Source: Platerodrilus igneus
Lineage: Eukaryota; Arthropoda; Insecta; Coleoptera; Lycidae
Length of the DNA: 64,000 bases
Reading direction: 5' to 3'
Assembly: GCA_036346225.1 (NCBI GenBank)
Contig: JARFIW010000139.1
Span: 7,750,001 to 7,814,000, forward strand
Shown here in pieces: positions 14,690 through 61,139 of this stretch. The notes below the pieces were generated by a model. That model ran no database searches, was not told the DNA's origin, and saw only the letters and a program-made list of their open reading frames with translations. The position numbers and the translations under genes are program-made. Each line of letters opens with the position of its first letter. Within the stretch, counting starts at the first letter, position 1.

Positions 14690-17600
14690 TTCGATGGACC
14701 TGCACCTTGCCGAAGTTCTAAATTACTAGAACAGGTAAAATGGCTTGCGTGTTCTAGTGAGCTAAAGAGCCAAACTACAGGTCCAACCAAAGTAGTAGGG
14801 TCGTTAGTGAGGAACCAGATTAAGACAGGTTCCCGAAAGAGGGGCCCGGCTCTTTCGGTACTTCGATTGGCAGAGACCATAGGGGTCGGTATGGCAGTCT
14901 AAGACACACTACCGCGATGTGGAAGGCAACGGAAAACCACCACATTATCTCCAAAGTACACAACGTACTTAAATTGTAACAGGATGCGATTAAAAATAAG
15001 AGAACATTCTGCGAGTCGAAGCGTGGAATGTGAGAAGTACAAAGCAAGTAGGTAAGCTAGAGAACCTAAAACCGAAATGAATAGGTTTTTCACTAGACAT
15101 AGTAGGGATCAGCGAAGTTCGGTAGCCAGAGGCGGGGGATTTTTGGAGTGGAGACTTCAGGGTAATTCATACAGGAGCAGAGGTAGGAAATTTGGGTGTG
15201 GGGATAGTTATGCGGAAAAAGATAGGATACTGTGTAGAAAATTACTTACAAAAGAACGAAAGAGTACTCATGTTTAGATTAGAATCTAAACCGGTAAACA
15301 TAGTAATAATACAAGTATACATGCCCAGCTCTAGCTATAGTGATGAAGAGGTAGAAGCCATCTACAAAGATATCCAAGACATATTAAGATACGTAAACGG
15401 ACATGAAAATTTAATAATTACGTGGATTTTAATGCCTTGGTAGGTGAGGGTCGGGAAGGAGCGGTAGTAGGTTTATTTGGTTTAGGCACGAGAAACGACG
15501 GACGAAATAGGCTGCTAGAATTTTGCGACAAGAACAATTTAATCATCACAAACACATTATTTCAACATCATATACGTGGAAGATGCCTGGAGATATGGAA
15601 AGATATCAAATAGATTACGTTATTGTTAGACAACGGTTTAGGAATCAAGTAAAAGACTGTAGAAGCTACCCAGAAGCAGATATAGATACTGACGACAACA
15701 TTGTAATTATGAAGGCCGCACTTAAATTTAAGAATGTGAAAAAAAGAAACGGAAAAAGACACTTGGACTTACAGAAACTAAAAGACAAAGATATTCAAGA
15801 AAGATTCGAAAAAAAGTCAAATGAATTACTCAAAGATATCGGGAAAACATCTGATACTAAGGGAGTAGAAACAGAATGGAATAACATTAAATCCAGCCTA
15901 GACATGGCGGCCAGATATATTCTGGGGTATACACAAAAAAGAAAATAAGAAACCATGGATAACAAAGGATATCCTGAATTTAATAGAAGAAAGACGAAAA
16001 TACAAAAATAAATCAGACGAAACAGGAAAACAGAGATACAAAGCCATAAAATGGGAAATTATTCGAAAATGCAGGAAAGTTAAAGAACAATGGATTGATG
16101 AAAAGTGCAAAGAGGTACAAACGAAGATGGAAATAGAAAAAACAGACGAAGCATACAAATTAATTAGAATGAATTATAGGGATATAAAACCGTGTAGCAA
16201 AAATATAAGGGACGCACAAGGAAACGTCATCATAGAAAACGCAGAGAAAGTGGGTAGATGGCAAGAATATATAGGGAATTTATATGCAGGAGAGGAACTA
16301 ACTGCATTAGAACAGGAATCAGACATCGAAAATGATGACTTAGGATATCCTATACTTAGAGATGAGTTTGAATTAGCATTAAAGAGTCTGAAAAATGGTA
16401 AGGCGCCGGGTACACATAAGGTGCAAGCAAAAACTCTAAAAGCCGCTGTACAAGCACACAGAACTTTTCTTCAAACTTGTAAGCTATATGTATGAGACAG
16501 GCGAGATACCCAAAGATTTCAAACGTAGCACCATAGTAACTATACCAAAAAAGAAAGGCGCGGATAGATGTGAAAATTGTCAAACAATAAGTTTGACAGC
16601 ACACGTGTCAAAAATATTAACTAGAATTGTGCAAAGACGAATGGAAAAACGGACGGAAGAAATACTAGGAGAAGACCAATTTGGGTTTAGGCGAAACAAG
16701 GGAACACAGGAGGCTATTTTAGCTCTGAGAGTGATAATAGAGAAAACAATAGAAACCGGGGAAAGCGTGTATATAGGATTTGTAGATCTGGAAAAAGCAT
16801 TCGACAATTTAAAATGGAAAAAAATGTTTGAAATACTCAAAAAGATTGGAATGAGTTATAGGGATAGACGAATAGTACATAGCTTATACAAAAAGCAAAC
16901 AGCAGTAATAGAATTAGAGCAGGAACGTAGAGAAGTAAACATTAGGAAAGGGGTGAGACAGGGATGTGCCCTATCCCCATTGATTTTTAACTTGTACATA
17001 GAAGAGGCAATGACTACTGTCAAATGCAGGAAGACATTTGGAATTACTATGCAGGGACAAAAGATTGATATGCTTAGATTTGCAGATGATATAGCGGTAT
17101 TAGCGTCTAGCAAGGAAGAGTTAGAAGCTGTTTTTAATGAAATGGAAACGGTTCTAACAGAGAGATACGGTATGAAAATTAACAAAACTAAAACTGAAGT
17201 TCTAGTATGCAAGGGTGGGGAAAATAAATCAAAAACAAGAATACACAAAGTTAACGAGAACTTACAAGAGGTTAAGGATTTCAGCTACCTAGGAAGCTAA
17301 ATAACGCAAGATGGGAAAAGCGTAAAACATATAAAACAAAGATTAGCACAAGGTCGTGCTACATTTAACAAGGAAAAGCAACTACTATGCTCAAAGACCA
17401 CAAACAAAGAAACAAGGAAAAGATTATTTAAAACATATATGTGGAGCACAGCACTGTACGGCTGTGAAGCCTGGACGGTAGAAGAAGCGGACAAGAAAAC
17501 GGTAGAAGCCTTTGAAATGTGGTGCTACAGACGTATGATGAAGATATCATGGACAAACAAAGTTAAGAACGAAGATGTACTAAAATGGTAGGGGAAGAAA

Positions 17601-33269: not shown

Positions 33270-34178
33270 TTTAGAAATTTTGAGAATAATGTAGAAGTAT
33301 TACTTGATACAGGGGCAGAGGCGAGTTTAATATCGGAGGAATTCGTCAGCAAAATTAGGGATAAGGTTTGTGATAGAATTATGCCTATAAAACGTAGCCA
33401 TTTAGTAGCTCCAAATAAAAAGAAGTTTGCTGTAGTAAATAGTGTTGTGGTGCTTAGGATAGATATAGGAGGTTTAAGCTGTGAACAGGAGTTTGTAATT
33501 GTACCTGGACTGAAGTTTCAGAGCATTTTAGGTGTTGACTGTATGATGAAGTTAGGGGTTTTGATAGATATGGAAAGGAAGGTAATAAGGATTAAGGATA
33601 GGGTAGTGCCATGGAAGGGCAGTTATGAAGTCACAGAGGATGACACGGGGTTTAGTATTAATGTAGTAGAGGTAGAGGATGATGAAAGTAAACAGATCAA
33701 CACAATAAGATGTCCAGAGGAAAGGAAAGTAGAGGTTCAAGCTTTAATACAAAAACATGCAGAAGTAGTGGGGGTAGAAGCAGCATATCAGGAGCAGGTG
33801 AAGGCGAAATTAAGTAAAGATGGCAAATTTGTTTTTAATAAAGTAGATTTAAGGGATTCATTCTGGCGGATTCCATTACACAAAAATTCTAGAAGGTACG
33901 TAGGGTTTTCCATAGAGGGAAAAATCGATAATTGTAAAGTAGTATCGTTTGGTTTGTCGGCAGAAAGGGAAACAAGAATAAATGAGAAACAGACAAGTGT
34001 AGGGACTGAAGAAGAAGTAATATTTAAGAGTCAGGATAAGAGGGATGATAAGTTTATTGTATGTGAGATAATAGAGATGTTAAGTATAGATATAGAAGGG
34101 GGAGAAATAGGGATGAAGAGTATTAGGTTGGTGAGAAGAAAGACTTGGAGGGTCAAGAAGAGAGTTAGATTTAAATAG
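33270..34178 (+). pseudogene. Gypsy pol: protease and truncated RT
   Basis: Protease active site VLLDTGAEASLISEEF near 33295-33345, with the flap and end of the protease in ILGVDCMMKLGVLIDMERKV. After about 40 residues the frame jumps to a mid-RT block (FNKVDLRDSFWRIPLHKNSR, then RYVGFSIEGKI and VVSFGLSAE). The N-terminal RT segment between protease and motif A is missing, and the catalytic YVDD, RNase H and integrase are absent downstream. The rest (from about 33970) is a Lys/Arg/Glu-rich open stretch without a domain. Enzyme activity is not expected beyond possibly the protease. Confidence 0.8.
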
Positions 34179-37550: not shown

Positions 37551-40256
37551 GAGGAAAGTGCCCAAAACGGGACCCCCATTTTATTTTTATTTTTATTAAT
37601 TAAAAAATTAAAAACAACTAAAACTATGTTTTAAAAGCACGTAATAATTAGTTGATAATGTTTTACGCCATTTAAATTTTATTTCCAGGAAATATTATAA
37701 TAAATTAGTAAGAAACAAAATATTTTACAAAACCTTACATTTCGGAAATTCTAAAAAAAGTTGCTTAAAGTGGACCCCTTGGAAAAATAATGGAAATAAC
37801 ACTTAAATGAATGTAAAAAGGGATTAAATCACTTAAAACATGAATTAAGTTAAAAGTAAATTATAAGGTATTTAATAGTGGTATAGTATAGTACAGAGAT
37901 GACATTTTTAACGGCAAAAATCACATACATAAATGTCTTTTTCTGCCCCAGCACAGTCCACATGGGCCCACTGTGAGCACATCATGCACATCACCCAAAG
38001 TTCCCCCTTAGAGTTCTCAGAAAATCTTCTGTCACAGAATATGCACAAAGCATCATTTTTTGATGGCGTTACTCCTGGCAAAGGCTCCATTACAGACGAC
38101 CCAGAGGAGATGCTGTCATCGTCACTGCTTGATTCTTTCTTGGCGTTCTTATCAAAGTTAAGACGTTTTTTTACAAGCTCTTTTCGTTTCCTTGAAGGTC
38201 CTGCTGAGCTACTTCCACGACCGCGATTAGTTTTGCATCCTCGAGCTTCACTCCGAGCTTGCTGTACAGCTTCCTTGGCCTTTTTAGCTTTTTTTAGCTT
38301 CCAACAAATGGGCTTTATAAGGCGTAGATGTGATTATTGTGGAACTGCAAGCTTTTCGTCTTTTCGTTGAGGTCCTCTTTTTGATTTTTAGTATAGGTGC
38401 AATCTCAAATGAACTTGTAACACTGCCCTGCTGAATATGTTGAACGTTGGTTAGGGTCAAACCGTGCAATTACTTGTGGTTCGTCTACATTGAATTCCTC
38501 TGTAACCACAGAAAAAATCTGTGGTTTTTCTCTTTAGCACTGATTCCTAGAAAGATAAATCTCGTTTCTTGTTTGCCTCTTCAATGAATTCAGCATCTGA
38601 GAACTACTTCTTATTCAGAGGATATATTCCTGTTACTCTGAAACCATTTATGGCTATTTCAGCTGTTTGGCATTTAATGTAGGCCTTGCCAAACAGTTCC
38701 ATTACATCAGAAGCACTCAGAGCACGTTCATTGAGTCGCAACCATTGCCTGATTTCCTCACTGTAGTAGACTTTTAGAGAACCCATGAAGGTTTTATCTA
38801 GAGGCTGTAATTTATGTGAGCAATGATGAGGCAGTGACACAATGGTAACGAAATTGGCTTTTGCCAAATCAATAACCTCAATGTTCTGTGTGTGGCTAAA
38901 GTGCCCATCCAAGAGCAACAACACTGGTTTTTCCTCGCTAGGATTTGTAAACTCGACGAAGTGTCTAAACCACTGAGTGAAGGAGTTTATTTGGATCCAT
39001 CCTGATGGGTGAACTGCAAATTTTGTTCCAGGTGGAGCCCTTTTTTTCAACTGCTCACTCATGTTTTTCCTTGAAAAAATCACTAAAGGGTGAACAAATG
39101 AGCCACTAGCACTCATACAGGCAACAACAGTTATTAGAGCACCACGTTCTCCCGATGTCAGGGCAGCTACCTGTTTTTGCCTTTAAGGCCAATTACCTTT
39201 GCTACTTTAGATTGAACCACAGTAATGCCGCTCTCATCGACGTTGTATATTCGGTCTGGTGTGAATTTTCCTTTGTCGTAGACATTTTCCAGAAGGTTAT
39301 AAAATGTCTGTGTTCTGTTTGTTAAACCCTGGGGCCCTGCTGTACGACGTTCCAGTAGGTTTCCTTTCTGACAGCTTTGCTTTGTGGTGTTTAAGAAAAA
39401 GGCTAACCCACTTTTTACCTGCAATATCATCTTTGAAAGGATGTTCTATGTAATTTTTTTCTGCCACTTGTACGACCATCCTTCTCAAGTCATTCCGAGT
39501 AAGGCCAAAAAAAGAAGTTTCCATAACAAGACAGTACTGAACTAATTCTTTTTCAAGATCTTTGCCCAAAACTGTAGGCTTGTCTCTGTTTGCTTTAGCT
39601 GCTTCCTCGGGTATACCGTATTTCATGTTTGATAACCGCATAAGAGTTGTTTTTGGTTCATTAAATTGCTTAGAAGCTTTCTTCCAACCCATCTTCTATT
39701 TTCGAACTGCGTCAATAGCTTTAGCCATTTTCGATGGACACCACTTCCTATGGTCAATCTTCCCCATTATCCTCTTGAAATCTAAAACAGAATTCAAAGA
39801 GAATAATAGTGTACAGAGGCATATACAGCAGGTTTTTAAACATGACAAATAACGGGTCCACTTTAGGAAACTTACTGGGTCCCTTTTGCGCGGCTATAGC
39901 CTCAATATTGTTTACATAATAACTTTTTAATGGAACATTCAAATACGATGGCTTCACGATACATATTATCTACATTCCTTACTATTCAAGAATAGAAATA
40001 TATGTTAAAAACCTTACCTGCCAAAATATAGGAGGAATGGCAAATAACGTATTACACTAAAGAATGTTTATCTAACAACAAAACACGTAATGGCGAACTG
40101 ACAGCCAGCGGGTAAAGCAGGTGAACGCTCCACTTTGTAGCGGTAGAGGTCTAAACTAATAGTTACGATTGATTCCGAAAGAGTTCATCACAGTACAGAG
40201 CCAGAAGACCAGGGGTCCACTTTAGAGGTAGGAGTCCGGTTTTGGGCACTTTCCTC
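37551..40256 (-). mobile_element. pogo/Tigger-like DNA transposon, 2.7 kb, with TIRs
   Basis: The left end GAGGAAAGTGCCCAAAACGG (37551-37570) is inversely matched by the right end, 40237-40256, with one mismatch in the first 22 bases. TA flanks both ends (37549-37550, 40257-40258). Subterminal copies of GTGGACCCC occur inverted at both sides (near 37775 and 40213). The interior carries one transposase gene on the minus strand. Size and ends are complete; only point lesions in the gene disable it. It inserted right next to the SINE head. Confidence 0.9.
37908..39775 (-). pseudogene. pogo-type transposase with C-terminal PHD-like finger
   Basis: Read right to left. N-terminal HTH (GWKKASKQFNEPKTTLMRLS), CENP-B-like second HTH (LVQYCLVMETSFFGLTRNDL, then KKWVSLFLKHH), then the DDE core: IYNVDESGITVV (first Asp), [11 protein letters not shown] (second Asp), [20 protein letters not shown] (third Asp), and [12 protein letters not shown] charged linker (about 38100-38600) ends in a Cys/His finger, CIFCDRRF...GELWVMCMMCSQWAH...CAG...YVCDFC, as in other insect pogo transposases. 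Frameshifts lie between 39297 and 39430 and near 39170. The in-frame TAG after PLNKK (38604) and further shifts in the linker break the finger from the core. The plus-strand open frame 37933-38370 is a shadow. Confidence 0.88.
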
Positions 40257-42715: not shown

Positions 42716-43978
42716 CAATTTTATTTTTGATTAATAAATCCCTTCATAAAAGTGCGAGAATAATAAAACACTTTTATTAAAATAATGGTAAAATACATTT
42801 AACAACTAAGGTAATACGTTAAAGCAGCATCGTCCTTTGGTATTCTATTTGTGGTTAATTATCTGTGTCTTCTACAACTATTCGCAGGCGCGTTTCGGTT
42901 TGACAGTCCCCTCCTCGGACGCCACGGTCGCCCGAGCTAGTTTTGTAATCAGTCGGCCATACGTGGAAGAAGCGATAAGATGTACCAAAGACTGCAGGCC
43001 GGCAATTTGCGTATCAACTTTGAGGAGTCGGGACACATCTTTGAATAGCGGTTGGTATCGTATGAAGGTTATTAACTTGTTTAATTTGAGATAATTTATT
43101 TAGCACGACGTGAAGAATGCTACAATTAAAAATGCAACTTAGAAAATAGGAAATTTAACCCATTTTATGAAGACCACTTTGTTTTACGACGTGAGGAATG
43201 CTACAATTAAAAATGCAACTTTGAAAATAGAAAGTTCAACCAATTTTAAGAAGACCACTTTGTTATACAACGTAAAGATGCTACTTTGGTGAGGCAGCGT
43301 GATTCAACATCCGGATTGCAGCAGCTGCCGAATGTATCGTGACCGTATTTGATTCTACACGTGGAACAACTCCATTTGGTAGAAGTTGTTTAGTATGAGC
43401 TTGGTTCACACTACATGCAGTAATCTTCGCGTGAAATAACAAGTACCTCATCAAGACGAGAAAAGCAGTTTTTGGTTCGCAGTTAGCTTTAAGTACTTTT
43501 TTGGTGTAATTCAGTTATTAATTAAATTTTTGTTGCAATTCATTTATTTTAAAAGAGATTCTTTTTAGTAAATAATTGGTTCAACATTAAAGTTTTTTAT
43601 TTTGATCAAATATGATCAGAAAGCTAACATCCTTAAGAGTAGAATTTTTATGCCAACTTTATATTGAAAATATCTTTTTACTACTTCTTTATGTATATTT
43701 GCGGGACACAAATAGTGTTCCACCTTTTTTATTAACCTAACTATTATAATTTCTTACAGGAACAGCGTCTTATTTTATTAAGACAGGTTTTTGTCATCAA
43801 AGGCGATTTTTTTTTCTTTGGGTCTCCACGTCCGCCCTTAGAAATATGCCATGCCATTATCCTGAATAAGTCCGGACTTGGTGGCGCCTATTTGTTTTAG
43901 ATTAAGTTTGACCTACAAACAGATTTCGACTTACCCCCCCATTTCTTATAGCTCTACCCAAGGAATAGACCCCTAGTT
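42716..43978. other. No gene recognised; holds a tandem repeat
   Basis: An 86-codon frame at 42837-43094 overlaps a sequence that on the minus strand resembles a worn hammerhead/PLE motif (CCGAGGA...CCGAAACGCG). The 81-bp tandem repeat is listed separately. The left end of the piggyBac element was not found. Confidence 0.5.
43105..43290. repeat. Tandem repeat, 2.3 x 81 bp
   Basis: Units start at 43105, 43186 and 43267 (ACGACGTGAAGAATGCTAC). The third is partial and diverged. A/T-rich, with no function evident. Confidence 0.88.
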
Positions 43979-44834
43979 ATGTCGGAAGACTTCGTCTCAC
44001 TAGCTCCCATGAGTGGGGCAGGAGCCTCTAAGGAAAAACCGTTGCAGGTTTTCCGTCTGGAAACTGGTTGGACACGTATCAGTTCCAGAATTTCATACAT
44101 TCATTGGATTGTTGTTGCACATGGGAACTTAGAGAACAAACCGAATACAAGACTATTGGAAAACTTATGCTCTTTTAATGTAAAATGTTTTCATGATAAC
44201 ATGAGTAGGGATCGCTTTTTCATAATTCTTAGGTGTCAGCATTTTGTTAAAAATCTTACAGGACTAGCTGTTATTGAGGATTGAATTTATAAAATACGTC
44301 CATTACTTGAATTTTTCAACGTAATATATCAGCCAGGAAATATGTCTCGCTTGATGAGTCAATGATACTGTGGCGAGGACGATTAGTCTTCAAGCAACTT
44401 ATTAAAAACGAACGTCATGAATATGGCATCAAGTTGTACGTTTCGACAGAGTTTGATGGTATGGTTTTGAACATGAAGATATACACTGGTAAACTGGATT
44501 CTTTAGGAGGAAAGGGCCATTAAAAAAAAGTTGTACTGCATTTAATGAAGAATTATTTTGGATATGGTCATTTGCTGTTTATTGACAATAATTATGCAGC
44601 AGTTGATCTAGCTGAGGATTGTTTGAAAAATAATACGCATTGCACAGGAACGTTAAATCCAAAACGTCGGAAACTTCCTAGGGAGGTGAAGGAAGCAAAT
44701 TTAAAAAAAGTGAGACTATAGGAAAATACAGGAATGGTATTTTAACGAATAATTTTGCCTGGCATGGAGAAAGTAATTCGAGCATAGGGAACCAAATCAA
44801 TATATAAATTGTTGGTTATTTTGCAAAAAGACAA

Positions 44835-44877
44835 GCCCGTGACCGGTTTCACTGTTCTTGCAGATCATCAGACGGAC
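44835..44877 (-). ncRNA. Hammerhead ribozyme, inverted copy
   Basis: Reverse complement of the ribozyme at 45256-45298, with all core bases intact (CTGATGA, GAAA, GTC on the minus strand). It belongs to the inverted partial unit at the left edge of the element. Confidence 0.78.
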
Positions 44878-45255
44878 GCATATATTTTTGCAAAACAACC
44901 AACTAAGTTCTAAAATAATACACAAATTAAAGTGTATCTATAGTGCAAATATTGGTTTCCGCCGACCAACTTCCTCGATTAGCACTGGGTGTAGTACCTT
45001 CTTAGAAGGTCCGCCAGTGCTAGGTAGGTAACAGGTCATTTGTTTATTTAATTTTCATTTTGTCTTTTGACTAGCTACTTAAATTTTGTCTGGCAATGCC
45101 ATCTACACTATCCCGTCGGAGACTGGAAACAGTCTTCGATAGTTAGTTGCTTATTCTCGAGTATAAAGGGCGCATGGGAAATATTTGCACTATAGATACA
45201 CTTTAATTTGTGTATTATTTTAGAACTTAGTTGGTTGTTTTGCAAAAAGATATGC

Positions 45256-45298
45256 GTCCGTCTGATGATCTGCAAGAACAGTGAAACCGGTCACGGGC
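45256..45298 (+). ncRNA. Hammerhead ribozyme, type I minimal
   Basis: Stem I GUCCGU pairs with ACGGGC (6 bp, one G-U). Core CUGAUGA is at 45262-45268. Stem II CUG/CAG has loop CAAGAA. Core GAAA starts at 45283. A minimal, self-complementary stem III ACCGGU leads to the cleavage triplet GUC, so cutting is predicted after 45292. Such tiny stems III are known to favour action as dimers or in tandem RNAs, which fits the tandem units. Confidence 0.82.
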
Positions 45299-45713
45299 TT
45301 GTCTTTTTGCAAAATAACCAACAATTTATATATTGATTTGGTTCCCTATGCTCGAATTACTTTCTCCATGCCAGGCAAAATTATTCGTTAATGTTTAATT
45401 GGAAACGGATTGGTTTCCGTCGACCAACTTCCTCGATTAGCACTGGGTGTAGTACCTTCTTAGAAGGTCCGCCAGTGCTAGGTAGGTAACAGGTCATTTG
45501 TTTATTTAATTTTCATTTTGTCTTTTGACTAGCTACTTAAATTTTGTCTGGCAATGCCATCTACACTATCCCGTCGGAGACTGGAAACAGTCTTCGATAG
45601 TTAGTTGCTTATTCTCGAGTATAAAGGGCGCATGGGAAATATTTGCACTATAGATACACTTTAATTTGTGTATTATTTTAGAACTTAGTTGGTTGTTTTG
45701 CAAAAAGATATGC

Positions 45714-45756
45714 GTCCGTCTGATGATCTACAAGAACAGTGAAACCGGTCACGGGC
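45714..45756 (+). ncRNA. Hammerhead ribozyme, second unit
   Basis: Exactly 458 bp after the first. Identical core, but stem II carries CUA/CAG, so one pair is lost; activity may be reduced. Confidence 0.78.
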
Positions 45757-46487
45757 TTGTCTTTTTGCAAAATAACCAACAATTTATATATTGATTTGGT
45801 TCCCTATGCTCGAATTACTTTCTCCATGCCAGGCAAAATTATTCGTTAATGTTTAATTGGAAACGGATTGGTTTCCGTCGACCAACTTCCTCGATTAGCA
45901 CTGGGTGTAGTACCTTCTTAGAAGGTCCGCCAGTGCTAGGTAGGTAACAGGTCATTTGTTTATTTAATGGTATTTTAGTTGAAAAATGGAAGGACAAGAG
46001 GGATGTTTTGTACCTACTTACACAGTTTAAAAATACTTTAACGAACACTAAAAATAAAAGAGGACAGAATATAAATAAACCATTGCCGATTTTAAAATAT
46101 AACGATTGTATGTATGGCGTTGATCGCAAAGACCAGATGTTGGCATACTACCTTTGCGAGAGAAAAACGTTGCGATGGTATAAAAAGTTGGCCATTCATA
46201 TTTTTCATGTGATGATGTTAAATTCTTATTATCTATTTAATAAATTTTCTGGCGAAAAAATGTCGTTGTACGATATTCGCTTACAGATCATTACACAACT
46301 ACTATATAAACTTTCAACATCTTCCAACTAAAATAACAACTAAAAATAAGAAGAGAGGAACTCAAAGAAAAAATGTAAAATTTGTACAACAAAAAAATTA
46401 AGGAAGGATATAATATACGAATGCAACATATGCCCAGATAAACCAGGTCTATGTTTAAACGAATGTTTTGCATTGTATCATCAGTAG

Positions 46488-53995: not shown

Positions 53996-54059
53996 AAAGA
54001 TTGTATACAAATAATTTATAGTTCCGGGTTGGAACCGTGTCATTTCATACATTAAGGTC

Positions 54060-54094
54060 GATGTTTCACCCACTTTTGTAAGGGTCTTCATCAG
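54060..54094 (-). ncRNA. Hammerhead-like motif in PLE, inverted copy
   Basis: Minus strand: CTGATGA, stem II ACCC/GGGT around a TTACAAAAGT-type loop, then GAAAC followed by ATC where the others have GTC. The cleavage triplet is thus altered. Stem I is short (about 3 bp). Confidence 0.5.
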
Positions 54095-54324
54095 GACAAG
54101 TAAAGAAATAAGTAATAAAATAAAAATAAGAATGATAATATTAAGCAGACAAGTTAAAGTGTAAAGAGAAGAGTTACTCCTGAACTAGCAGACTCACTAG
54201 CCCATTTAAAGCCCCAAGGTGTCTTGTAGCGAAGTAACTGGTGAAAGTAGCGAAAGTGGTAGTTTATATAAGGCGAGAACTTGATGCATGAGCAATCATG
54301 AATAGAGAGGAGTGTCGTGGCGGA

Positions 54325-55838
54325 TCAGTGAACGTTACGGTTCCGCTGTTGTGAACATAGGCTTGTTTTCCAAATAGGGGAAAGGTAGTAGCCATCGTCT
54401 TTGTTTAGAATATTAGAATTTTTATTGATTTCTATGGATTCTCTAATTTTTCTATTGTAGAAAAATGGAATTCGGACTATTAGTTTCGTTTTGTCAAAGT
54501 TAATGGTATGGCCTGTTTCATGGTGGTGTTCGGCCACCGCTGAGCGATTGCACTGGCTTGTTCTTAAGCATCGATTATGCTCGTTTAGTCTAGTCCGTAC
54601 TGACCGTCCTGTTTCTCCTATGTATACTAAACCGCAACTGCAAGGTATACTATACACTCCTGGGGCTTTAAGACTATTTATGGAAACTTTTGGGATTGGT
54701 AATATTTGCGAAATTTTACTGGTGGGTTTATAGATTGTGTTGATGTTGTGTTTACGTAGAATTTTGCCAATTCGGTCTGTTACTCTGTGTATATATGGAG
54801 GGATTGCTAAAGATCGTGTATCGGGATTAAAGCGTGGTTTAGGGGTTCGTGTAGGATGCAGATGCCGGTTTATTACTCTGCCGATATCTGAGTTACGATA
54901 GCCATTTTTTATAAGACTGGTTTTAAGATGGGTCAGTTCATTAGATAAGTGTTCTGGTTGTGAAATCTTAATTGCACGGTGGACCAGAGAGTTGATTACC
55001 GATGATTTTTGTGAGGGATCATGATGTGATGACGCATGTAGGTATCTGAACGTCGAGGAATGGCAGAGTTCCGTTCTTTTCAATTTCTATAGTGAACTTA
55101 ATATCCTTATGTTGATTGTTTATGTGATCTAGAAAATTATTGAGCGTTTGATGTCCATGGGGCCAGATTACAAAAGTGTGGTCTACACAACGGAGCCAAG
55201 TTTTTGATTTAAGGTCTGTGGATTCTAGAGTCATGGATTCCAAAGGCTCCATAAATATATTGGCCACAATAGGGGATAGAGGTAAGCCTATTGGTGTGCC
55301 CGAGGTTTGTTTGTAAAATTGTCCGTCGAAGACAAAATAGGTAGAAGTTAAGCATTTTTCTATGAGCGTGGCCAGGTACTCAAATTCGTTTTCTTGAGGT
55401 AGGAGTTGTTTAATAATGGAGACAGGGTCTATGACGGGTACATTTGTAAATAAGGATGTTACGTCAAAACTAACCAGTATATCATTTGGGTCTAGTTCAA
55501 TATTTGCAATTAGTTCTATAAAATGAGTGGAGTTTAAAACATTAGTAGGGTTGTAACCGGAATAAGGTTTTAATAAATTTGCTAGGTATTTTGCCAGATG
55601 GTTGGCGAGTCAATTGTGCTAACTATCGGACGCAGAGGGACATCAGCTTTATGGACTTTAGGAAGGCCGTATAAGCGAGGTGGTTTAGATTCGCGAGGTA
55701 TTATGCGTTTTTGGATAGTTTTGGGAATATTAGAGGACTTGATAAGTGCTGAAATTTCCCGTTCAAGCTTTGAAGTGGGGTCTTTTGTTATAGGAGTGTA
55801 GGAATCGTCTTCTAATAATTATTTAATCTTTTTATGAA
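54325..55838 (-). pseudogene. PLE protein, 5'-truncated inverted copy (RT and GIY-YIG)
   Basis: Minus strand, from codon 'KIKQLLEDDSYT' at the junction. RT blocks: SFDVTSLFTNVPV (first catalytic Asp kept), a GTPIG block, then WLRCVDHTFVIWPHGHQTLN, where the usual YVDD reads CVDH. The Penelope-specific thumb and the GIY-YIG endonuclease follow (GVYSIPCSCGLVYIGETGRS, with the CCHH-like elements C..C, H...H). The C-terminus is complete, ending SPIWKTSLCSQQRNRNVH. A frameshift near 55040-55080 splits RT from the rest, and a start-like shift occurs near 55600. Confidence 0.85.
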
Positions 55839-56316
55839 ACAGGCCATACCATTAACTTTGACAAGACGAAACTAATTGCCAGAATTCCATTTTTCTACAA
55901 TAGAACAATTAGAGAATCCATAGAAATCAATAATAATTCTAATAAGCTAAACAAGGACGATGGCTACTACTTTTCCCCCATTTGGAAAACAAGCCTATGT
56001 TCACGACAGCGAAACCGTGACGTTCACTGATTTGCTAGGACACTCCTCTCTATTCATAATCGCTCATGCATCAAGTTCTCGCCCTATACAAACTACCCCT
56101 TTCACTACTTTCAACAGTTACTTCGCCACAAGACACCTTTTGGCTTTGAATGGGCTAGTGAGTCTGCTAGTTCAGGAGTAACTCTTCTCTTTACACTTTA
56201 ACTTGTCTGCTTAATATTATCATTCTTATTTTTATTTTATTTTATTACTTATTTCTTTACTTGTTCTGATGAAGCCCCTTACAAAAGTGGGCGAAACGTC
56301 GACCTTAATGTATAAA
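55839..56316 (+). repeat. Left pseudo-LTR of the PLE
   Basis: Plus-strand copy of the 3' end: endonuclease tail (ETGHTINFDKTKLI-type sequence, then KDDGYYFSPIWK-like), UTR and hammerhead motif. It is near-identical in order to 60500-60960. It forms the 5' flank of the full copy. Confidence 0.8.
56266..56300 (+). ncRNA. Hammerhead-like motif in PLE, left pseudo-LTR
   Basis: CTGATGA (56266-56272), stem II GCCC/GGGC, GAAAC (56293-56297), then GTC with the minimal stem III ACGU. Stem I is weak (about 3 bp with the flanks), and one unpaired A precedes stem II. It looks like the best preserved of the three PLE motifs. Confidence 0.6.
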
Positions 56317-56829
56317 ATGACACGGTCCCAACCCGGAACCATAAATATTTATAATGACTCCGGCCGTGAAAGCCTCCGACAATATCACAAAAACCTTTAC
56401 GGAGAGGATATTGTAAACAAAACAAAAACTTTCAGTAACCTTAGACATTCACTAGCAAAATTACTCTGTACACTCACCTTTTTGGTACGGTGTCGTGATT
56501 CCGACATAGTTCCAAATTTCCTTAAAATAAAATACCACATTAAAACATATTCCAGCAGAAAAATTCTTCACATAGCAGAACTCTCACTTCTTCACGAACG
56601 AATTTCCAACACTCAAAAAGAAATAGACAATATTTCTAAACAACTCCTACAGCTCCATCTAACATTATCTGCCACGCTTAACTATAATGACTGGACTCTG
56701 TTTGACCGAATTTCATACTTGCAAGCCCAAAACCGAACTCACCACAAAAACCGACTTACGCAAATTCTGGCAACTTTCCAAGAACCCTTCACACCCTGAA
56801 AAAACATCTTGCCCGAAAACTCTGTTACG
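56317..56829 (+). pseudogene. PLE protein, N-terminal part
   Basis: ATG at 56317 directly follows the hammerhead motif; an in-frame ATG at 56269 lies inside it, so 56317 is preferred. The product has the N-terminal pattern of Penelope proteins: TLTFLVRCRDSDIVPNFLKI, IAELSLLHERISNTQKEIDN, LLQLHLTLSATLNYNDWTLF. A stop after EPFTP (56797-56799) and a frame change follow; reading resumes as ARKLCY up to the LTR insertion at 56829. It continues at 58747. Confidence 0.78.
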
Positions 56830-58746
56830 TTTTTTCTTCGTGGCCGCCACGTTGGGCGCCAAATTTATGCTACGTAACACAAAGAAAAACAAAGAAATGA
56901 CCGGGCTCAATCGGAGAGTAGGGGGGTTGTAGAAAGCAGACTGACCTATGATGTATGCGGCGGTAAGGAGTTAGTAACAGTACCTGCAATAAAAGAAATT
57001 AGAATAGCAAACCTGTAATAAAAAAGATTAGTCCTGCAAACCTGAAATAAAGAAAAAGCATAGCAGCAATGCATAGTCTAAGTTATTCATTCAGTACTTG
57101 GTAGAATGAAAATAAAAACTGTTTAGATAAACTATATAATATAACAACGGTAAAAGCAATACAAAAATATTTAGTACAAAGTGAGGTAATATTGGGGAGT
57201 AGCATTAACGTTTCCTCACACACCAATTAAACATAAATCAGATAAAATGTTGACAAAAGATAAATAGATAAGACACAATTGGTATGAGTAATTCAGTAGT
57301 ATTGATTTTTCTTTCTTTTTTTTTTCTTAATCGCAGGCAAGTCTATTGTAAAAGGTATCAGAACGACGAAGATATGGCAAAACAACGGATAGATATTTAA
57401 AGTAATAATAAGTAGGAAATAGTTCAACTTACAAAAAGTCCTTCAGCAACGCTTCCTCGCGTTTGAAGTGTGGGATTCACGAGGTCCTGCACTAGCGAAG
57501 CACTTCACCCTTGTCTGTGGGGGTGTTGATGGAATTTCTTACACTTTACACTAATCACACCTTCGCATTTCACTGGTGTTAGCAGCAGACACCATCAGGC
57601 TGATGGAACTATGTAGCATTGATAAATTTATTGTTAATTCTATTTCCTGAGACAATAATGTCGAAATACTTTGTAACACAAATCAAAAAAAAAATGGTAA
57701 TAAAAATTTAGAATCACGGGCCTTCAAGGCACGATGTAATGCATTAAACTAACAGTAACGTAAGGACTAGATCGCACACACAGTTCAAATATAAAAAGAC
57801 AAATCAACTAAAAAAACACAATCAATAAAGCAACGCGTATCACTAAGTCAATGTTCCGTAAAACAAGCACGTGCGGTCGAGTAAAACAAGTTCTATCACT
57901 TTTTTTTCCAACAGAAGATCAACACAAACAATTAGCAAAGCAACGCGTAAAACCGTCAGTCAATGACCTTAAAACAAGCACGGGCGGTCGAGTCAAACAC
58001 GTTCGCCTATAAAAGCATCTTTTTTTCAATATATTCAGAACTACACTGCTCTACAGTTAATAAACAACTTTTACCCCACAAGAAAACTCAACTAAAAACA
58101 CAATTAGTGAAGCAACAAGGAAACAGTATTTTTAACGTAATATCGGAACAAAACACAAACTACAACTTTCAAAGCAAACAGGACACAGTATTATCAACGT
58201 AAACAATATATAAGAACGAAGAACAAACGACAACTCCTAGTCTGTAGATATAAAATCGTTGTTACCATAAACTCTTGTCGACTATTATCTCCTTCGCTAA
58301 TAACATAAGGAACAACCAAAACGTGAATCCGCAATCATATCTAATAATTAATTCTCACTATTTTCAAAGCAAAACGGAAAGCAGTATTTTTACCGTAATT
58401 AATATATAGGAACGAGGAACAAAACTACCACTCACGTTTCAAAGGACCGCGCAGGACTCATGTTTTCCCAGGTGTTGGTTTTAACGACCTCCTATCGATA
58501 ACTAGAAAATCAATAATATCCACATGAGGAACAAAAATGTATATCTACTAATTACTTACGAGCTGTTTATCATTTTCGATAAGTTTATTAATGAAAATCA
58601 ATCTTCAAATTATCTACTTTTAAAGTAATACCCACGAGATAAATTGCATACAAATCTGAATTATTCTGAAGTGTTTCCTTTATACAAACAGCGATCCCAA
58701 AGAAACGATGTATTTTTAAGTACGTTAACAGAAAGGAAGCGTAAAA
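56830..58746 (-). mobile_element. Single LTR with primer-binding site inserted in the PLE
   Basis: 1917 bp flanked by TGTTACG (56823-56829 and 58747-58753). Near its left edge, the minus strand reads TTGGCGCCCAACGTGG (from about 56856 leftward), a primer-binding site complementary to the lysine tRNA 3' end. The LTR would therefore occupy about 56868-58746 on the minus strand. Only about 20 bases follow the primer site before the flank. The body holds two direct repeats (57831-57900 and 57941-58010; 58170-58230 and 58365-58420). No gag or pol remains, and the LTR ends do not show clean TG...CA. Confidence 0.55.
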
Positions 58747-58753
58747 TGTTACG

Positions 58754-60550
58754 CTATAAAAAATGCCCGTTACAACTCTGTCCTCAAATACCGTCATAAA
58801 CCGATCAGAACATATCCTATCCGAAAACGAACTAAATATCCTATCCAAAGGACTAAACTTCTCAATTGCACACAGAAAAATTCCCGCAGAGAAAATCATT
58901 AGCTCTGTAGAATCAGCGATCCGATCTCTACCCCAAGACGATGCCAACTTAATTCGCTTTAAAACAACTAGATGTCTCCGATATGCCAAAACTCCTAACA
59001 AAAATGTGACAAAGCAATAAATGACGGCCTTAAAACACCTACGAACAAACAAGAAAATTGTTATACTCCATGCAGACAAAGGTAATGCGACTGTAATTCT
59101 AAACCGTACAGAATACCAAGAAAAGATTGAACAGTTATTAGAAGACGATTCTTACACTCCTATAACAAAAGACCCCATTTCAAAGCTTGAACGGGAAATT
59201 TCAACACTTATCAAGTCCTCTAATATTGCCAATACTATCCAAAAACTCATAATACCTCGCGAATCTAAACCACCTCACTTGTACGGCCTTCCTAAAGTCC
59301 ATAAACCTGATCTCTCTCTGTGTCTGATAGTTAGCACAATTGACTCGCCAACCTACCATCTGGCAAAATACCTGGCAAATTTCTTAAAACCTTATTCCGG
59401 TAACACCTTTACTACTGTTTTAAACTCCACTCATTTTATAGAACTAATTGCAAATATTGAACTAGACCCAAATGATATACTGGTTAGTTTTGAAATAACA
59501 TTCTTATTTACAAACGTACTCGTCATAGACACTGTCTCCATTATTAAACAACTCCTACCTGAAGAAAACGAATTTGAGTACCTGGCCACGCTCATTGAAA
59601 AATGCTTAACTTATACCTATTTTGTCTTCGACGGACAATTTTACAAACAAACCTCGGGCACACCAATGGGCTCACTTCTATCCCCTATTATGGCCAATAT
59701 ATTCATGGAGTCTTTGAAGCCCATGACTCTAGAATCCACAGACATTAAACCAAAAACTTGGCTCCGTTGTGTGGACCACACTTTTGTAATCTGGCCCCAT
59801 GGACATCAAACGCTCAATAAATTTCTAGATCACATAAACAATCAACATAAAGATATTAAGTTCACTATAGAAATTGAAAAGAGCGGAACTTTGCCATTCC
59901 TTGACGTTCTGGTGGAGCGCCAACCTAACGGACGACTAGGTCATTCCGTATACCGAAAACCCACACACACAGACAGATACCTACATGCGTCGTCACATCA
60001 TCATCCCTCACAAAAATTATCGGTAATCAACTCTCTTGTTCACCGTGCAATTAAGATTTCACAATCAGAACATTTATCTAATAAATTGACCCATCTTAAA
60101 ACCAGTCTTATAAAAAATGGCTATCGTAACTCAGATATCGGCAGAGTAATAAACCGACATCTGCATTCTACACAAACCCCCAAACCACGCTTTAACCCCG
60201 ATACACGATCTTTAGCAATCCTTCCAATTATACACAGAGTAACAGACCGAATTCGCAAAATTCTACGTAAACACAACATCAAAACAATCTATAAACCCAC
60301 CAGTAAAATTTCGCAAATATTACCAACCCCAAAAGATTCCGAAAATAGTCTTAAAGCCCCAGGAGTATATAGTATACCTTGCAATTGCGGTTTAGTATAC
60401 ATAGGAGAAACAGGACGGTCAGTACAGACTAGACTAAACGAGCATAAGCGATGCTTAAGAACAAGCCAGTACAATCGCTCAGCGGTGGCCGAACACCAAC
60501 ATGAAACAGGCCATACCATTAACTTTGACAAGACGAAACTAATAGCCTGA
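58754..60550 (+). pseudogene. PLE protein, RT and GIY-YIG endonuclease
   Basis: Frame continues through VTTLSSNTVINRSEHILSEN to TAA at 59018-59020, then an uninterrupted 509-codon stretch. RT: ILHADKGNATVILNRTEY, PHLYGLPKVHKP, SFEITFLFTNVLVID (first Asp now Glu), YKQTSGTPMGSLLSPIMANI, WLRCVDHTFVIWPHG (YVDD read as CVDH), FTIEIEKSGTLPFLDVLV. Penelope thumb, then GVYSIPCNCGLVYIGETGRS (GIY-YIG). It ends KTKLIA with a premature TGA; about 45 codons of the usual C-terminus lie downstream, out of use. A long open frame with at least two altered catalytic positions. Confidence 0.88.
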
Positions 60551-60873
60551 ATTCCATTTTTCTACATTAGAAAAATTAGAGATTCCATATAAATCAATAA
60601 AAATTCTAATATTCTAAACAAAGACGATGGCTACTACCTTTCCCCATTTGTAAAACAAGCCTATGTTCACAACAGCGGAACCGTGACGTTCACTGATCCG
60701 CTACGACACTCCTCTCTATTCATGATCGCTCATGCATCAAGTTCTCGCTCTATATAAACTACCACTTTCGCTACTTTCACCAGTTACTTCGCCACAAGAC
60801 ACCTTTTGGCTTTGAATGGGCTTGTGAGTCTGCTAGTTCAAGAGTAACTCTTCTCTTTATACTTTAACTTGTG

Positions 60874-60908
60874 CTGATGAATCCGCTTACAAAAGTGGGC
60901 AAAACGTC
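60874..60908 (+). ncRNA. Hammerhead-like motif in PLE, right pseudo-LTR, decayed
   Basis: CTGATGA followed by CGC...GGGC stem II, but GAAAC is AAAAC. Loss of the core G argues against activity. Confidence 0.5.
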
Positions 60909-61139
60909 GATCTTAATTTTTAAAATAACACGGTCCTAACCCGGAACCATAAATATCCGGCCGTGAAAGCCTCCGACAATATCACAAAGATTGTATACAT
61001 TTCTTAAAACACAACTCTAAATAAGGAAAGATACGTTTAAACAATAAAAGGTAGGAAAGGTATCCAAGGTAGAAGTATGTTAAAAAACCGTAAGAAAAGA
61101 AGATTTAAACAGTGATTGACTGATTAAATTGGGAAGGGT

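Follow-up and report, generated by a model that had tools for sequence, protein, structure and literature searches.

A retrozyme-like hammerhead repeat of the beetle Platerodrilus igneus shares head-to-head, two-ended insertions with some Penelope-like elements

Introduction

Non-long terminal repeat (non-LTR) retrozymes of metazoans have been described as short, A+T-rich, non-coding units that are repeated in tandem, carry type I hammerhead ribozymes, range from dimers to large multimers and are bordered by target duplications of more than 4 bp (PMC7229834). The same account describes axolotl hammerheads whose weak stem III has a palindromic loop and whose stem II has a U-U at its base, states that the axolotl hammerhead cleaves as a dimer, and raises as a puzzle why hammerhead circles do not reopen. 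Here we examine a comparable repeat from the lycid beetle Platerodrilus igneus. It lies in a window of 64,000 nucleotides (assembly GCA_036346225.1, contig JARFIW010000139.1, positions 7,750,001 to 7,814,000 of the forward strand; the window is this whole stretch, and coordinates below count from its first letter), where units of 458 bp with a hammerhead-like core interrupt a piggyBac-like transposase. An earlier note, made from the sequence alone, had proposed that the insertion is a hammerhead retrozyme.

How retrozymes return to DNA is an open question, and Penelope-like elements (PLEs) have been named as likely helpers of those of metazoans (PMC7229834, PMC7761336). Descriptions of PLEs include copies with inverted pseudo-long terminal repeats (pLTRs), target duplications of 8-10 bp and an optional tail of 31 bp on one inverted end (PMC3846280), and the purified PLE protein of Anolis is reported to cut and extend both strands, with two internal start sites that bound a 'tail' (PMC11167929). 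No head-to-head, two-ended anatomy for retrozymes appeared in the passages that we searched of the literature, which covered retrozymes, hammerhead ribozymes, Penelope-like elements and RNA circles as templates; the 2014 and 2017 papers on PLE hammerheads lay outside that search. We describe such an anatomy for this element and for some PLE copies of the same genome. We put at roughly 75% the probability that the element is a non-LTR retrozyme, present here as a recent non-autonomous insertion, whose RNA circle was reverse-transcribed by the enzyme of a PLE, starting at two places inside the RNA, one per cut target strand.

Results

The insertion (44745-45965) comprises 2.2 tandem copies of the 458-bp unit behind an inverted partial copy of the same unit. 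Two full units on the plus strand, at 44951-45408 (unit position 1 being 44951) and 45409-45866, are followed by a partial third unit (45867-45965) and preceded by an inverted arm on the minus strand (44745-44953), which runs from about unit position 441 down to 230. Two of the 458 positions (44962 and 45272) distinguish the full units, and the inverted piece has one mismatch over the 212 bp that align (44742-44953 against 45180-45391, the match extending past the arm to 44742); because these differences are so few, we take the insertion to be young relative to most copies examined. The earlier note had correctly given the unit length, the tandem arrangement and the presence of an inverted partial unit, but the units are not exact repeats as it had stated, and the inverted piece measures 212 rather than 213 bp. 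The unit has a G+C content of 38.4%, and its longest open reading frame (ORF) from an ATG spans 38 amino acids (aa) in a trimer.

Both flanks carry a 12-bp target duplication, AATGGTATTTTA, at 44733-44744 and 45966-45977. The interrupted gene is a decayed piggyBac-like transposase on the plus strand, whose left part (43952-44744) is recognizable by its reading frames without a separate family match and whose right part (45978-46331) matches PF13843. Removal of the insert and one duplication lets the transposase read through in one frame locally, while stops and frameshifts occur elsewhere. The duplication and the local restoration of the frame therefore stand as claimed earlier; the transposase copy is nevertheless broken elsewhere, and 12 bp would keep the frame in any case.

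Each unit contains a minimal type I hammerhead, as the earlier note had recognized. In the first unit the core with its inner stem I occupies 45256-45298 (plus strand) and reads GTCCGT-CTGATGA-TCTGCAAGAACAGT-GAAA-CCGGTC-ACGGGC; it recurs at 45714-45756 with one base different, an A at 45730 that breaks one stem II pair, and on the minus strand in the inverted arm at 44835-44877 (core 44841-44871). Stem I has an inner part of 6 bp and, beyond an internal loop, a long outer part, so that the whole motif in the first unit extends over 45230-45322, and the loop of stem II has 6 nt. Stem III is made up of ACC and GGU, which are directly adjacent. Cleavage is predicted after 45292 and 45750, as placed from the GTC positions. 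At the gathering score, Rfam gave no match in the window or in the fetched loci L046, L048, L049, L052 and L056. The Rfam check proposed earlier thus produced a hammerhead match, but a sub-threshold one: all three copies match Hammerhead_HH9 (RF02275) best, at 27.5-31.6 bits against a gathering score of 52, with E = 1.3e-5 for the top match of 31.6 bits (1.5-kb search).

The region 45225-45330 is predicted to fold at -42.7 kcal/mol (z = -7.3), a stability reached by none of 200 shuffles. A single motif cannot close stem III because nothing separates ACC from GGU, and the predicted probability of the first stem III pair in a single motif is about 1e-6. Duplex folds between two copies gave -8.3 kcal/mol for ACCGGU, compared with -7.5 for the ACGCGU of another family in this genome and -1.7 for the ACGU of a PLE hammerhead; on these modelled energies, pairing of units through ACCGGU suggests that the motif would cleave as a dimer. 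Pairing in stem II appears to have been maintained. Among 41 distinct variants, typed by eye from the core matches listed and chosen regardless of pairing, standard pairs fill 102 of 123 cells for pairs 2-4 (shuffle mean 92.9; a count that none of 2000 shuffles attained) and 118 of 164 for all four pairs (attained by 1 shuffle of 2000). Covariation within the young subfamily was unusable, the 68 aligned hammerheads (that of the window and 67 of the 117 distinct ones listed) being too alike. The sequence CTGATGA..GAAA..GTC is kept by 144 of the 168 hammerhead copies covered in the loci.

The element is one of many in the genome, which we searched over 2.71 Gb in 1723 contigs. The core pattern CTGATGA-N(8-20)-GAAACCGGTC matched 1215 times and its reversed control once, which excludes chance and bears out the earlier expectation of further copies; the exact 31-base core pattern had no match in viral contigs. 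A wider hammerhead pattern gave 7668 matches (control 0), and those listed belong mainly to two further repeat types, F3 (spacing of about 300 bp, GAAACGCGTC) and F2 (about 510 bp, GAAACCATTGGTC). F3 also carries a loopless, self-complementary stem III, ACGCGT. Comparison of one or two copies each of the window family (F1), F2, F3 and a PLE revealed no significant nucleotide similarity between any of them.

A further search for copies yielded at least 199 matches (39 scored of 3021 candidates), and 37 clusters were fetched from those listed; with the window they make up the 38 loci and 48 hit clusters in which orientation and ends were surveyed. Units adjoin directly with few interruptions in the 37 fetched loci. 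The copy at L032 is about 8 kb long, or 18 units' worth, and that at L034 combines units of two types with an interruption of 2.4 kb of other DNA.

Both orientations were present in 30 of the 48 clusters, and in all 30 the minus-strand units precede the plus-strand units, so that the arms lie head to head; this survey supersedes an early count of 18 head-to-head neighbours against 0 among 63 places picked by eye. The outer ends are also fixed. One, end A, lies near unit position 441 and the other, end B, near unit position 101, the sense ends both facing outward. In the window, A is the outer end of the inverted arm and recurs within the full units at 45391 and 45849, whereas B is the outer end of the partial third unit and recurs at 45051 and 45509. 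Twenty-four two-armed copies, in 26 clusters because two copies are split, could be judged at both outer ends, and 21 of these have one A and one B end; the other three are A/C (L040), B/C (L042) and A/other (L018), with no A/A and no B/B copy. The inverted piece is thus a recurrent anatomy and not an accident of the window copy, because 30 of 48 clusters are two-armed, all of them head to head and with two fixed outer ends.

Most of these classes were assigned by script (19 clusters: 12 A/B, 6 B/A and 1 A/A). The single A/A call, L018, is an artefact, since the match on the right stops near unit position 446 while a decayed unit continues to about 45, and we count it as A/other. Re-reading of L021 and L032, which are split by interruptions, and of L010, whose end is slightly shifted, gave A/B with duplications of 13, 11 and 9 bp, respectively. 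L040 combines A with a third place, C, near unit position 48 and has a 12-bp duplication; L042 combines B with C and has none. There may be a third start site near unit position 48 in L040, L042, L028 and L018, and in L018 the element ends near position 45 and is followed by some unexplained bases.

Target duplications accompany the A/B copies, being exact over 11-16 bp in 18 of 21 and 8-9 bp long in the other three; a duplication of at least 10 bp was found in 2 of at most 300 random pairs of places. The insertions are independent, since among 72 flanks compared only one pair shares a stretch (69 bp) at E 1e-10. Across 16 oriented empty sites, G is the most frequent base after the cut on each strand (9 of 16), a weak motif that looks as if one nuclease had cut both strands. 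No poly(A) was seen at the junctions examined.

With cleavage predicted after unit position 342, the distance downstream is 99 nt for A and 217 nt for B. Reverse transcription therefore starts inside the RNA, since the cleavage site coincides with neither end; the two outer sense ends of two-armed copies are where cDNA synthesis started on each flank. The unit is predicted to fold as a circle at -140.3 kcal/mol, compared with -100.0 (sd 5.8) for 60 shuffles. This single-sequence prediction places A and B in or beside unpaired strands that flank a stem-loop domain between them (unit positions 448 to 87; 45398-45495 in the window).

To compare the arms we dropped units of less than 92% identity, both here and in the variant counts given below, and, here only, unit columns 385-398, where an indel makes the alignment ambiguous. 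In the 21 elements that offered sufficient sites for both comparisons, the mean divergence was 0.0243 between units of opposite arms and 0.0223 between units of the same arm (Wilcoxon p = 0.95), the two measures being correlated across elements (Spearman 0.82). At 18 columns polymorphic in the family, agreement between units was 95.6% across opposite arms, 95.4% within an arm and 76.6% between loci. Equal similarity of the arms is what would be predicted if one circle had been copied round from both sides; a homogeneous linear multimer would predict it nearly as well.

The same window holds a PLE-like element (54011-60988) with a reverse transcriptase (RT; PF00078). Its assignment rests on this domain, on the relative at L046, whose 819-aa frame is 48% identical over 96% to an 836-aa protein of Anolis carolinensis, from which the PLE of PMC11167929 also comes, and on other relatives: among the 120 listed, one carries PF01541, which we take to be the GIY-YIG domain, and another is named as a GIY-YIG endonuclease. 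A T5orf172 match in the window element was weak and below the cut-off (E = 0.073). The window PLE also has head-to-head arms. It is split by other DNA from about 56825 to 58774, and its outer ends are of type A and type B, flanked by a duplication of up to 14 bp, AAAGATTGTATACA. Its hammerheads lie at about 54094 (minus strand) and 56266 (plus strand), with a decayed one near 60873, and the PLE hammerhead motif in this genome is GAAACGTC. L056 and L058 likewise have B and A ends, offset by 33 nt, and their duplications reach at most 14 bp and 13 bp, respectively. Thus 3 of the 8 PLE copies examined have both ends, with offsets of 33-42 nt. Counted downstream from hammerhead cleavage, the two PLE starts fall at about 49-57 and 88-91 nt.

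Copies of F2 and F3, chosen because they have opposite-strand neighbours, show A and B ends in six of the seven fetched (L047-L052; the decayed A ends of L048 and L050 were read by eye), while L053 was undecided on the right. Their starts lie about 60 and 97 nt (F3) and 139 and 180 nt (F2) after the cleavage site, and A+T repeats, mostly (TA)n, border them at one or both ends.

Other remains of mobile elements in the window include an RT (PF00078) at 16440-17300, a retroviral-type aspartyl protease domain at 33270-34178 and DDE_1 at 38604-39182. Elsewhere in the genome, COX1 matched 97 times over many contigs, probably mostly as nuclear copies of mitochondrial DNA. One mitochondrial-like stretch carries ND2, COX1, COX2 and ATP6 in this order, as would suit an arthropod, the names being read from invertebrate-code translations, and a tRNA search with the bacterial setting found none in the mitochondrial-like locus L054.

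Discussion

The element has a type I core, short ORF-less units of low G+C content and dispersed copies with target duplications of more than 4 bp, and its identification as a retrozyme in the earlier note agrees with the description in PMC7229834. It also has what a PLE enzyme would be expected to leave behind, namely head-to-head arms with a duplication and two internal starts, the farther of which (the 'tail') is present on one end only. We therefore favour a cycle in which a tandem array is transcribed and neighbouring units pair through the self-complementary ACCGGU as a shared stem III, so that a double hammerhead would cut each unit after GUC. A host ligase would close the 458-nt monomers into circles, and lone circles, being unable to form stem III, would stay closed. 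A Penelope-like enzyme with RT and GIY-YIG nuclease activities would then cut an A+T-rich target on both strands, with some 11-16 bp between the two cuts, and both cut ends would prime reverse transcription at the internal sites A and B that flank the stem-loop domain. The cDNAs would travel round the circle one or more times and be joined head to head; inverted arm, tandem units and target duplication would all result from this.

This cycle may be part of a more general arrangement, which we put forward tentatively, at somewhat under even odds. Two RTs of one PLE complex, one per strand, may roll round a single circle from fixed sites; the loopless stem III (ACCGGU here, ACGCGU in a second family) may act as a switch that allows cleavage only between neighbours in a multimer and keeps the circle from reopening; and three unrelated repeat families of this genome may parasitize PLEs through a common hammerhead-A-B anatomy. 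A loopless stem III would also be a simple explanation for why hammerhead circles might stay closed.

Several observations weigh against the retrozyme cycle proposed above. The surveyed loci are the best-scoring matches and not a random sample, and 18 of the 48 clusters have one orientation (two belong to split two-armed copies and two run off the edge of the fetched sequence), so the head-to-head arrangement is common and not universal; moreover, 22 of the 48 clusters, being single-armed, cut or decayed, could not be judged at one end or at both. In L017, a single arm with an A end is accompanied by an exact 12-bp duplication, which indicates that one arm alone can also insert. The base preference at the cut site (G in 9 of 16 on each strand) is weak. 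As for the ribozyme, the minimum-energy fold of 45225-45330 differs from the active hammerhead, the isolated motif is predicted to misfold by pairing of the core CUG with the CGG of stem III (probability about 0.8), and the closing pair of stem II is U-U in the subfamily of the window but G-C in other members. As for the enzyme, the nuclease domain of the window PLE was not matched above the cut-off in Pfam, NCBIfam or Protein Data Bank (PDB) sequences, 5 of 8 PLE copies are single-armed with one end, A or B, and no duplication, and the spacing from A to B is 118 nt in the window family compared with 33-43 nt in PLE, F2 and F3. The study of the Anolis protein in PMC11167929 also saw start sites that did not differ from one strand to the other, and its main substrate in vitro was RNA that had not been processed.

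That substrate bears on the strongest alternative, in which the template is an array transcript that remains multimeric, linear and uncut, the hammerhead is a relic or acts later, and a PLE still starts at A and B. The PLE protein used unprocessed RNA in vitro and ribozyme mutants still inserted (PMC11167929), and the units of an array would be homogeneous by descent anyway. Variation within loci provides further evidence for such a template, since 46 non-CpG variable sites are common to a subset of units, the minor allele at 18 of these 46 is the majority allele in at least two other loci (the figure for sites that vary in one unit only is 31 of 242), and two types of unit occur together in L034; opposite arms are also clearly more divergent in L010 and L034. 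However, the 242 single-unit variants against 46 subset sites would be expected if units had been identical at insertion, and arms are in general no more different than units within one arm. The length of the 18-unit copy at L032 also tells against uncut RNA, although 144 of 168 hammerheads keep their core. On balance we consider a linear template unlikely and continue to prefer a circular RNA copied from two starts.

A PLE that had lost its coding part might instead have left a run of solo pLTRs. In its favour, PLE pLTRs have the same anatomy, and the PLE hammerhead of this genome has a similar stem III without a loop. In contrast, units adjoin directly in the 37 fetched loci, no RT or GIY-YIG ORF was found in the unit, and the 2.4-kb interruption of L034 contains no stop-to-stop frame of more than 83 aa and matches neither the other fetched loci nor the window. 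The unit also lacks nucleotide similarity to the one PLE family compared, which counts against solo pLTRs and also weighs against the cycle favoured above, for which a sequence in common with an autonomous PLE partner would be expected, though it is not strictly defining. We judge this origin improbable.

Twin priming by an enzyme of the long interspersed nuclear element (LINE) type also yields head-to-head inversions with target duplications, and might have moved the RNA and made the inversion here. We considered and rejected this as very improbable, because fixed internal starts lie at both ends in 21 of 24 judged copies, the junctions examined lack poly(A), and PLE copies in the same genome share the two-end anatomy. 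DNA-level amplification of a satellite, whose hammerhead would be present by chance or as a relic, would account for tandem, A+T-rich, non-coding repeats but is contradicted by the target duplications, fixed ends and dispersal in unrelated flanks, by the excess of core matches over the control and by stem II pairing above that of shuffles, and we give it a negligible chance.

Minimal hammerheads with a loopless stem III of self-complementary nucleotides have reportedly been found in PLEs by Cervera and de la Pena in 2014 and Lunse et al. in 2017. The hammerhead of the window family differs in having what would be a stem III of 3 bp per motif (ACCGGU) and a long stem I with an internal loop. 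It differs from Rfam Hammerhead_HH9 (RF02275) in that the stem III loop of the model is absent. Plant LTR retrozymes, as portrayed in PMC7229834, are likewise hammerhead-bounded non-coding retroelements with circular RNA, as we propose for the present element, but have type III hammerheads, an LTR, a primer-binding site (PBS), a polypurine tract (PPT) and 4-bp duplications.

With PLEs of the Penelope/Poseidon kind, as they appear in PMC11167929 and PMC3846280, the element shares the head-to-head partial copy, the target duplication, the one-ended tail and two starts downstream of a minimal hammerhead; it differs in having no ORF, in an A-to-B distance of 118 nt compared with about 31-42 nt, and in having no sequence in common with the family compared. 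With metazoan retrozymes, as set out by Cervera and de la Pena in 2020 (PMC7229834), it shares the hammerhead type, the tandem non-coding units and duplications of more than 4 bp. Its unit of 458 bp compares with RNAs of about 170-400 nt and earlier repeats of 150-450 bp in that account, and the loopless stem III, the head-to-head arms and the two fixed ends set it apart. A new family in this lineage, as the earlier note had surmised, is plausible. Mobilization of retrozymes by PLEs has been proposed before; the anatomy described here adds support for this proposal and, because it matches both PLE copies and the start sites of a purified PLE protein, makes it directly testable.

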